This document shows positions 59,190 to 60,595 of a stretch of DNA of 64,000 bases, in pieces (position 1 is the stretch's first letter; each line of letters opens with the position of its first letter). Below the pieces are notes generated by a model. That model ran no database searches. It was given only the letters and a program-made list of their open reading frames with translations, and had not been told where the DNA came from. The position numbers and the translations under genes were made by a program. Where the stretch lies: positions 1 through 64,000 of the forward strand of contig NZ_QGSY01000136.1 of the NCBI RefSeq assembly GCF_003857035.1. The letters run 5' to 3'. This DNA is from Micromonospora arida. GTDB lineage: Bacteria > Actinomycetota > Actinomycetes > Mycobacteriales > Micromonosporaceae.

Positions 59190-60026
59190 TCAGGCGGAGT
59201 AGCCCCGGCTGGCGATCCAGTTGGCCAGGTTGATCGTGGTGATCCAGTACGACGCGTCGGCCGGGTTCGCCGAGTCGGCGATCCGCACGGTGCGGCCGTT
59301 GTCCTTGTAACCCACGACAGCGATGTAGTGACCGCCACCGTAGGAGTGCCAGCCGCCGGCAGTGTCGGTGGCGTCGCCGACGACGTTGGCGACCACGCCA
59401 CGGCCGTCGGTGATGGCCTTCACCACGTCGGCCTGGAGCTGGTCCATCTGGGCCGGGCTGGGCGCGCCGGCGAACATCCGGGTCCGGTACGGGGAGCCCT
59501 TCACCTCGGCGTTGAGCACCCGGGTGGTGTCCAGGGCCGAGTTGGTGCCCATCTCGGTGGTGCCCAACTCGGCGCCGAGCTCACTCTGGGTGCGGTCGAT
59601 CCCGGCGGCGCTGAGCGCGTTGCGGGTGGCCGCCGGGCCGCAGTTGTAGTAGGTGTTCTGCGCCTCGTAGTCGTAGTCGAGCACCTTCGTCGCGGGGGGC
59701 TTCGGCGGCGTCGGCTTACGGGTCAGGTCGGGGTTGCTCTTGGCCTTGGCGGCGGGCGAGGCGGCGCTGGTGGCCGGGGCGGCCGTGGTCGGCGCGGCGC
59801 TGGCGGAGGGGGACGCCTCCCGCGCGTCGCCGCGAGACGCGGCGACGTCGCTGCGCATCTCGGCGACCGTTGTCGCGGTGCGCTGGCCGGCCGGGGCGTC
59901 GTCGGCAGTGGTGAGCAGGGCGCCGGTGGTGGTGGCGATCGCGAGCGCCGCGGCGGAGGCAACGACGATCTGGTACGGGCGCTCGGTGGCGAGGCGGCGG
60001 AGCTGACGCTGCAGGGTGTGCTTCAC
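59190..60026 (-). CDS. Exported C39-like cysteine peptidase
   Basis: A 278-residue protein. One membrane segment at about 20-40 (VVASAAALAIATTTGALL) acts as signal or anchor; residues 55-115 are Ala/Ser/Thr/Pro-rich and probably disordered; the papain-like C39_2 domain holds Cys in YYNCGPAATRNAL and His in GGGHYIAVVGYKD, with Asp in IADSANP. It probably cuts peptides or cell-wall material outside the membrane. GTG 60026 is fixed by ggagga seven bases upstream. A 246-nt spacer separates it from a c-di-AMP riboswitch, which should set its expression with turgor and wall state. Confidence 0.82.
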   Translation of the reverse strand: MKHTLQRQLRRLATERPYQIVVASAAALAIATTTGALLTTADDAPAGQRTATTVAEMRSDVAASRGDAREASPSASAAPTTAAPATSAASPAAKAKSNPDLTRKPTPPKPPATKVLDYDYEAQNTYYNCGPAATRNALSAAGIDRTQSELGAELGTTEMGTNSALDTTRVLNAEVKGSPYRTRMFAGAPSPAQMDQLQADVVKAITDGRGVVANVVGDATDTAGGWHSYGGGHYIAVVGYKDNGRTVRIADSANPADASYWITTINLANWIASRGYSA

Positions 60027-60176
60027 GGGGTCCTCCACGGATCGGGGGGTGAGCGGCACACCGGGGCCGGACCGGTATCCGGGCAGGCGCCAGCGCGCGG
60101 ACCGTGGTCCGCGGATGGTGAACCGCTCAGGGGAACGCCCGGCGCGGCCGGGCGGGGAAGGCGATGACCCGGGGGG

Positions 60177-60263
60177 TCAGCTCACCGTCACTGGACGAAT
60201 GAGCGGGTGCACCGCCGCGCCGTGGAGGCGAGGGAACAGCCGAGGGGTGGAAAGGTGCTGCAC
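60177..60263 (-). CDS. Possible 28-codon leader ORF after the riboswitch
   Basis: An ORF from GTG 60263 to TGA 60177 encodes 28 residues, starting VQHLSTPRLFPRL. The aaggag in the 3' part of the aptamer lies ten bases before the GTG, so ligand folding could expose or hide it. GC at third positions is moderate, about 78%, below that of real genes nearby. It may be chance, a leader peptide or a small regulatory protein. Confidence 0.3.
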   Translation of the reverse strand: MQHLSTPRLFPRLHGAAVHPLIRPVTVS

Positions 60264-60271
60264 GAGGATGG

Positions 60272-60410
60272 GACTCCTTCCGACACCGCCTACCGGGTTA
60301 GCTGACGGATTCGGGCGGGAAGACGCCCTACCGCGGGCCGTGGCTCGCGGATTCACCCCGGACTTACTGGTGGGTCCCCGGTTCGTTGATCACGATTAAG
60401 CGGGTCGGCG
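60272..60410 (-). ncRNA. Cyclic di-AMP riboswitch (ydaO/yuaA type)
   Basis: Read on the minus strand, the leader contains in order the family-conserved blocks cggggacccacc, ggggtgaatcc, gtaggg, cccgaatccgtcagctaa, cccggtaggcgg and ggaaggagtc. These are landmarks of the c-di-AMP aptamer known upstream of actinobacterial cell-wall hydrolase and rpf genes, usually shutting the gene off when c-di-AMP is high. It follows a good promoter and precedes the C39-like gene. Edges are approximate. Confidence 0.88.
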
Positions 60411-60452
60411 CGGCGTCGCGTCTTGCGATCGGTTACCGCACCGGACGGGACG

Positions 60453-60481
60453 ACACTACTGGCGTCTCAACGCCCTGCCAA
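60453..60481 (-). promoter_or_regulatory. Housekeeping promoter of the riboswitch/peptidase transcript
   Basis: On the minus strand TTGGCA (60476-60481) and TAGTGT (60453-60458) are exactly 17 bp apart. Transcription would start near 60446, about 35 nt before the aptamer. The 215 bp between here and the gene stop at 60697 show only a hairpin at 60596-60614. Confidence 0.55.
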
Positions 60482-60595
60482 GCCAGGTTCACCTGCGTAA
60501 ACCCCAATCGGCGCGACAATTTCTGCGCGTATTGCAGATGATGTGACTCGATGGGACAACCGGTTACGGCGACGCCTGCGGGCGACAACCGGACA

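Follow-up and report, generated by a model that had tools for sequence, protein, structure and literature searches.

A conserved upstream ORF lies between a c-di-AMP riboswitch and an exported-looking C39-like peptidase gene in Micromonospora and probably relays its signal

In this study, we report the analysis of a 64,000-nucleotide stretch of the Micromonospora arida genome (contig NZ_QGSY01000136.1, positions 1 to 64,000), referred to below as the window, in which the evidence supports a leader with a c-di-AMP riboswitch ahead of the gene for an exported C39-like cysteine peptidase. Directly behind the aptamer lies a small conserved upstream ORF (uORF), and the sensor probably switches this uORF first, which in turn probably hands the signal to the peptidase. 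We give slightly better than even chances to an OFF switch whose direct target is the 28-codon uORF, with an anti-Shine-Dalgarno sequence (anti-SD) as relay to the Shine-Dalgarno sequence of the peptidase (SD2). The aptamer, the promoter, the Shine-Dalgarno sequence of the uORF (SD1), the uORF, SD2, the complementarity and its conservation can be read from the sequence, while ligand binding, the OFF direction, translation of the uORF, the relay itself and a role in wall remodelling are inferred. All features described are on the minus strand.

The RF00379 (ydaO/yuaA, c-di-AMP) aptamer was located at 60272..60412 (60412-60272, minus strand) by a cmscan search of the whole window, with a score of 87.1 bits against a gathering cut-off of 38 (E 5.9e-19). 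The match covered positions 1-134 of the 134 of the model, and nothing else in the window reached the gathering threshold of an Rfam model. The covariance search with RF00379, full-length at 87.1 bits, therefore bears out the ydaO aptamer claimed by a first-pass annotation made from the sequence letters. The promoter TTGGCA-17-TAGTGT named there is likewise present (60453..60481; −35 box at 60481-60476, −10 box at 60458-60453, spacer of 17 nt) and conserved in the Micromonospora leaders; a strict sigma-70 scan did not list it. Scored by a simple in-house measure, the promoter reached at least 8 in 60 of 61 leaders vs 11.6% of shuffles, and the pattern TTGGC-N18-TA[ACG]TGT was present in 53 of the 61. 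A promoter of the TTGGCA/TAGTGT type was found 40-41 nt upstream of the aptamer in the 14 leaders inspected. Upstream of the −35 box, a conserved element GTTTACGCAG (60493..60502) was noted which resembles GTTTnnGCAG; by this loose pattern it occurred in 59 of the 61 leaders, 88-92 nt before the aptamer, and it was not seen by eye at the four other c-di-AMP switches of the genome. It is possibly an operator, that is, a transcription-factor site.

An intrinsic-terminator scan of 59980-60520 gave 0 terminator-like sites, and a terminator platform of the B. subtilis type was not found there. According to the available text of one report, the c-di-AMP members of S. coelicolor and C. glutamicum also lack an intrinsic terminator, so that it is no requirement of the family (PMC9960051). 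A GC-rich hairpin (GCCCGGC-CGC-GCCGGGC, 60137..60153) stands in the interval between uORF and peptidase, with its pairs kept in most of 60 leaders; as an intrinsic terminator it was ruled out, since it has no T tract and the scan was negative.

The peptidase start was placed at GTG 60026, which has its own Shine-Dalgarno sequence, SD2. The start at 60059 given in the ORF list was rejected because it shows no Shine-Dalgarno sequence and poor conservation, and 60026 was preferred for its GTGGAGG Shine-Dalgarno sequence and the conserved KHTLxRQLRR N-terminus. This GTG is 246 nt past the aptamer. Aptamer and peptidase gene do not adjoin: 245 nt with a conserved uORF intervene. SD1 (GGAAGGAG, 60274..60281), at the 3′ end of the aptamer match, is invariant in the 60-leader alignment. 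The uORF (60177..60263), which is recognised by the conservation of its start codon and SD1, begins with GTG 60263, 10 nt behind SD1, and encodes the 28 residues VQHLSTPRLFPRLHGAAVHPLIRPVTVS before a stop that ends at 60177; this last base of the stop codon is also the lower bound that had been given to the feature in the first-pass annotation. The statement that the riboswitch controls the peptidase is hence retained insofar as the leader is that of the peptidase gene, but the conserved uORF holds the directly controlled position.

The leader was found throughout the genus wherever the orthologue was compared: besides the locus of the window, RF00379 was present at all 60 congeneric orthologue loci, from 58 genomes, and orthologues without the leader, the case named in advance as contrary evidence, did not arise within the genus. 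The nearest named relatives, with 94-95% identity, belong to Micromonospora. Peptidase orthologues with at least 60% identity occur in 59 genomes of a genus sample of 61, the two without one being G009 and G052; as an observation apart, these two still carry 5 and 3 c-di-AMP switches, respectively. It must be noted that some leaders needed individual treatment. L046 has two in-frame ATGs, of which the second was chosen manually as the uORF start, and the peptidase start of L033, missed by the pattern, was manually assigned to TTG, this leader being absent from the first leader alignment and included in later counts. L069, a collapsed leader without a separate uORF stop, was excluded from the 60-leader alignment and from the duplex, pairing and codon counts and kept in the distance count.

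SD1 and a uORF directly behind the aptamer were found in all 61 leaders, with the start codon 7-11 nt after SD1 (58 GTG, 2 TTG and 1 ATG). The uORF has a stop in 60 of the 61 after 14-34 codons, which is TGA in 58 of these 60. Although the distance from the start to CTCCAC/CTTCAC takes several values, it is divisible by 3 in 51 of the 58 motif-bearing leaders; L028 was scored out of frame for no other reason than an additional CTCCAC ahead of the real one. The peptide, for its part, is weakly constrained: the synonymous share is 0.38 vs 0.26 and 0.32 in the shifted frames, and differences are evenly spread over codon positions 1, 2 and 3 (406, 470 and 454, respectively). An LHG core is found in most Micromonospora uORFs, the uORF peptides of Dactylosporangium and Planosporangium are alike around an RR motif (by eye), and the sequences diverge between genera. 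Conservation of start and frame together with weak constraint on the peptide suggests that translation itself matters more than the exact product.

The genome carries five RF00379 switches. The four others precede an NlpC/P60 protein, an Rpf-like transglycosylase plus LysM protein, and two exported-looking coiled-coil proteins (switches L001 and L002) which share a similar C-terminal region and have no Pfam match at E ≤ 0.01. This set of genes fits a wall regulon, as had been proposed. At these four switches the Shine-Dalgarno-near start of the exported protein, assigned by hand, sits 1-14 nt behind the aptamer, and it is this same slot which the uORF occupies in the window leader.

Within the uORF lies CCUCCACGG, the complement of CCGUGGAGG of the peptidase. 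More precisely, the anti-SD CCTCCACGG (60220..60228), in the codons of R-L-H-G, is the reverse complement of 60040-60032, the SD2 region CCGTGGAGG (60032..60040). Such complementarity of an anti-SD to the downstream SD2 is present in the window leader and in the genus, and across genera as a group. In the 60-leader alignment TGGAGGA at SD2 is invariant (60/60), and 97.0% of the cells in the anti-SD/SD2 columns are paired, vs 45-68% when the partner is slid by 1-3 columns. When the window leader is folded, SD2 pairs with the uORF anti-SD with a predicted probability of 0.89. Over the 60 leaders the predicted SD2-uORF pairing was 0.93 vs 0.35 with a dinucleotide-shuffled uORF; it exceeded 0.5 in 57 of the 60 (all except L066, L070 and L071, which lie below 0.5) vs 248 of 720 shuffles, and 34 of the 60 leaders scored higher than every one of their 12 shuffles. 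When the uORF was kept open, as if covered, the mean SD2 pairing fell from 0.97 to 0.78, with a drop of more than 0.2 in 27 of 60 leaders and a rise of more than 0.2 in 0. The release of SD2 by a covered uORF is thus no more than partial.

In that alignment no double compensatory change between anti-SD and SD2 was observed within the genus, and swapping partners among sequences left the pairing unchanged. Both sides are nearly invariant, which accounts for the absent covariation, and therefore the within-genus pairing rests on conservation. Duplex energies per leader were only moderately unusual (a median of 8 in 100 shuffles were as good, and 5 or fewer in 15 of the 60 leaders), and the best duplex site for SD2 lay inside the uORF in 48 of 60. 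The exact anti-SD motif is missing from L033, L047 and L066. CCTCCAC is retained in another frame in L038, L050, L053, L058 and L063, and also in L104 (by eye), and its persistence where the frame differs points to a role as RNA. A local uORF hairpin, CACGGC-NNN-GCGGTG, was considered as a conserved element and not adopted: 77.2% of its cells are paired and a slide of −3 is nearly equal (73.0%), with a G-G mismatch in 59 of 60 leaders and no covariation. A second CCTCC-containing site (CTCCTCCGCG-like) between uORF and SD2 is the best SD2 duplex partner in ten leaders (L031, L037, L038, L042, L043, L044, L046, L055, L057 and L059), and is a possible second anti-SD.

In other genera the complementarity was assessed by in silico hybridisation of uORFs with SD2 regions, using the window leader and 19 leaders of other genera. 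After subtraction of row and column means, own pairs were better than swapped ones by 1.85 kcal/mol. This preference was reached in 4 of 10,000 permutations with the 20 leaders, which include leaders without a clear anti-SD, and in 3 of 10,000 with a thinned set of 16. With one leader per genus label p was 0.0005, and with an alternative choice of 12 leaders 0.0197. As related leaders are not independent, these cross-genus p values are guides. Among the controls, shuffled uORFs gave −0.03 ± 0.42 and the aptamer segment no signal (p 0.30); the segment behind the uORF also favoured its own SD2, though less strongly (p 0.015, and p 0.043 when each genus was represented by one leader). As a group, then, the uORFs appear to carry complementarity that tracks the SD2 of their own genus (4 of 10,000 permutations). 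The clearest pairs are two of genus g44, in which the SD2 GTCGAGGTA meets the uORF sequence TACCTCGAC (L092) and the SD2 GTCGAGGTG meets CACCTCGAC (L096). Taken singly, only L084 (20/500) and L092 (5/500) stood out in a shuffle test of 13 other-genus leaders, and in the majority of leaders from other genera no clear anti-SD is seen within the uORF. Some members of the family may therefore lack the relay, or it may rely on different sites there. The other-genus peptidase starts were assigned by hand as those bearing a Shine-Dalgarno sequence, and wrong picks would blur both the cross-genus and the shuffle results.

Two leaders within the genus are collapsed. That of M. qiuiae (L069/L178) is ~180 nt shorter than the leader of the window and reads CCTCCACG-GCCCT-CGTGGAGG, so that anti-SD and SD2 form a single perfect 8-bp local hairpin, and its uORF continues in frame into the peptidase. 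The collapsed leader of M. sonchi (L165) is likewise ~180 nt shorter with a uORF in frame with the peptidase, and its equivalent stem has one mismatch (by eye).

From these elements we infer the following mechanism. At low c-di-AMP, ribosomes would load at SD1, on the 3′ edge of the aptamer, and translate the uORF; in doing so they would cover the anti-SD CCUCCACGG and leave the peptidase SD2 accessible. When c-di-AMP is high, the aptamer would close and SD1 would stay unused, so that the anti-SD of the untranslated uORF could pair with SD2 ~180 nt downstream and turn the peptidase off. The untranslated C-rich leader may additionally attract Rho. The OFF direction is presumed for the window switch from C. 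glutamicum nlpC (PMC9960051) and S. coelicolor rpfA (PMC10117811), as described in the available parts of these reports. A more demanding form of this proposal, which we put forward tentatively and hold to be somewhat short of an even chance, is a two-stage switch in which c-di-AMP never acts at the ribosome site of the peptidase and instead gates a mini-ORF whose translation removes the long-range anti-SD. The peptidase would then be the AND of low c-di-AMP and translation capacity, with the complementarity re-tuned between genera.

Rho must be considered a serious partner or rival of the relay, given the lack of an intrinsic terminator and the C-rich uORF stretch. As a rival, c-di-AMP would stop translation of the uORF, the naked C-rich leader would recruit Rho and transcription would end before the peptidase, the anti-SD/SD2 pairing being secondary. 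Over the first 78 nt of the uORF the C/G ratio is 1.68, a value that about 98% of the stretches of this length in the window do not reach, and this agrees with such a course, as do the negative terminator scan, the use of Rho by the Mtb Mbox (PMC12810186) and the premature termination reported for S. coelicolor rpfA (PMC10117811). However, termination by Rho does not predict a complementarity that follows the SD2 of each genus; moreover, the S. coelicolor c-di-AMP switch is cited as Rho-independent and control in C. glutamicum is translational, according to the available text of PMC9960051. We consider this explanation unlikely, at roughly one chance in four.

It is less probable still that the uORF is incidental and that the aptamer governs the elongation or stability of an mRNA with a long 5′-UTR. 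Open frames come easily in high-GC DNA, the peptide is weakly constrained and the GC-rich hairpin at 60153-60137 is kept in most leaders, all of which favours this view. Nevertheless, an incidental frame accords poorly with SD1 and a start codon in 61/61 leaders where GTG, TTG and ATG interchange, with a frame maintained through indels, and with the position of the uORF in the slot that protein starts occupy at the four other switches; the terminator scan was also negative. The lowest standing is given to the view that the product of the uORF acts, either as a stalling leader peptide or as a small protein, with the complementarity as a by-product of the R-L-H-G codons. The shared LHG core in most Micromonospora uORFs and the likeness of the Dactylosporangium and Planosporangium uORFs around RR (by eye) speak for it, but coding constraint is weak, CCTCCAC is retained when the frame differs and the peptides diverge between genera, which makes it quite improbable.

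A relay by the uORF to SD2 has its closest known counterpart in the Mg2+ riboswitch (Mbox) of Mtb pe20, with its uORF1 and uORF2, in which the aptamer likewise ends in an SD1 and is followed by a uORF, an anti-SD rich in pyrimidines and, further downstream, an SD2 (PMC12810186), and for which its authors propose a relay and/or Rho termination (PMC12810186). It differs in ligand and aptamer, and its SD2 serves a second uORF before a PE/PPE operon (PMC12810186), whereas that of the window serves an exported peptidase. The B12 riboswitches of Mtb metE and ppe2 likewise turn translation off and have uORFs which affect the expression of what lies downstream (PMC11260477); in ppe2, however, stop and start overlap with reinitiation (PMC11260477), while the uORF stop and the peptidase start in the window are 150 nt apart. 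C. glutamicum nlpC shares the RF00379-type OFF switch, a wall peptidase gene, an actinobacterial host, the lack of a canonical terminator and translational control, but there nlpC is directly controlled and the available text describes no uORF (PMC9960051). S. coelicolor rpfA is alike in aptamer family, kind of regulon and OFF direction (PMC10117811), and differs by premature transcription termination of the hydrolase mRNA, again with no uORF described in the available part of the report (PMC10117811). In the S. meliloti metA SAM-II case, the riboswitch Shine-Dalgarno sequence also governs translation that starts further downstream (PMC9373788), but within one in-frame ORF and over 74 nt, with no separate stop-bearing uORF in the accessible description (PMC9373788).

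In S. lividans, six c-di-AMP riboswitches have been reported before secreted peptidases, an NlpC/P60 protein, a transglycosylase and a lysozyme-like LysM protein (PMC8079986). Riboswitches for c-di-AMP before wall hydrolases were already known, as were riboswitch-uORF systems for B12 (PMC11260477) and Mg2+. No c-di-AMP riboswitch with a uORF was present among the matches listed in the open-access literature, where no paper joins Micromonospora, c-di-AMP and riboswitch; an earlier mention elsewhere is possible. With the present leader, a C39-like peptidase joins the kinds of c-di-AMP target known from Actinobacteria. The leader further suggests that the aptamer-uORF-anti-SD-SD2 relay may be a wider actinobacterial riboswitch solution where intrinsic terminators are rare, and it predicts that the direct target can be overlooked when annotation assigns an aptamer to the annotated gene that follows.

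The peptidase gene (59190..60026) encodes 278 aa and matches Peptidase_C39_2 (PF13529) with 71.3 bits against a cut-off of 24 (E 1.6e-19), in agreement with the exported C39-like cysteine peptidase that the first-pass annotation had placed behind the aptamer. At its N-terminus, read by eye, basic residues precede a hydrophobic segment and an Ala/Pro-rich linker comes next, and the protein looks exported or membrane-anchored. The candidate triad C129, H233 and D251, which is proposed from the sequence, is invariant in 39 aligned orthologues. An AlphaFold2 model built with these 39 orthologues had a mean pLDDT of 74.7, with 145 of 278 residues at or above 90; the blocks within 111-278 averaged 90-98, and the stretch 18-93 was of low confidence. 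Foldseek matched the model to 3erv (C39-like, 2.1e-5) and to the ComA peptidase domain (2.3e-5), and its neighbours in all included exporter peptidase domains, the P210 CD lyase, papain-like toxins, phytochelatin synthase and the pseudomurein endoisopeptidase PeiR. Model, Foldseek matches and conservation agree with a papain-like fold bearing Cys-His-Asp residues; no relative was found in the PDB by sequence at E ≤ 0.1. The protein may function in cell-wall remodelling, with peptidoglycan as a possible substrate, although its structural neighbours are of mixed function.

With respect to other genera, a family search gave matches at E ≤ 1e-30 in 34 of 81 genomes, of which 30 are outside the genus and 26 of these gave loci. 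RF00379 was present at 16 of the 26. The ten loci without switch (L085, L086, L088, L089, L091, L093 and L097-L100) may be paralogues, since their matches begin at query residue 37 or later, but the switch-bearing L084 and L090 likewise match only from residues 56 and 104. At the order level, 4 of 55 genomes outside the genus had a relative at E ≤ 1e-20, and 0 of these four loci carried RF00379 in their flanks. In a further set of 80 loci, which overlaps that of genus and family, 78 matched a pattern made up of the tail of the riboswitch, SD1 and the start of a uORF. L190 has tail, SD1 and uORF start with GAAAGGAG, and L188, which has just 310 nt upstream, was left out of the judgement.

C39 copies number six in the genome of the window. 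One is a C-terminal fragment that lies at the start of a contig, so that the part upstream of it is missing from the assembly; leaving this fragment aside, the window copy is the only one of five that lies near a c-di-AMP switch, judged by coordinates. Additionally, paralogous C39 peptidases with at most 55% identity were observed in inverted pairs ~60-75 kb apart in G002, G022, G026, G045, G047 and G053, which look as if they were the ends of an element or of a duplicated locus.
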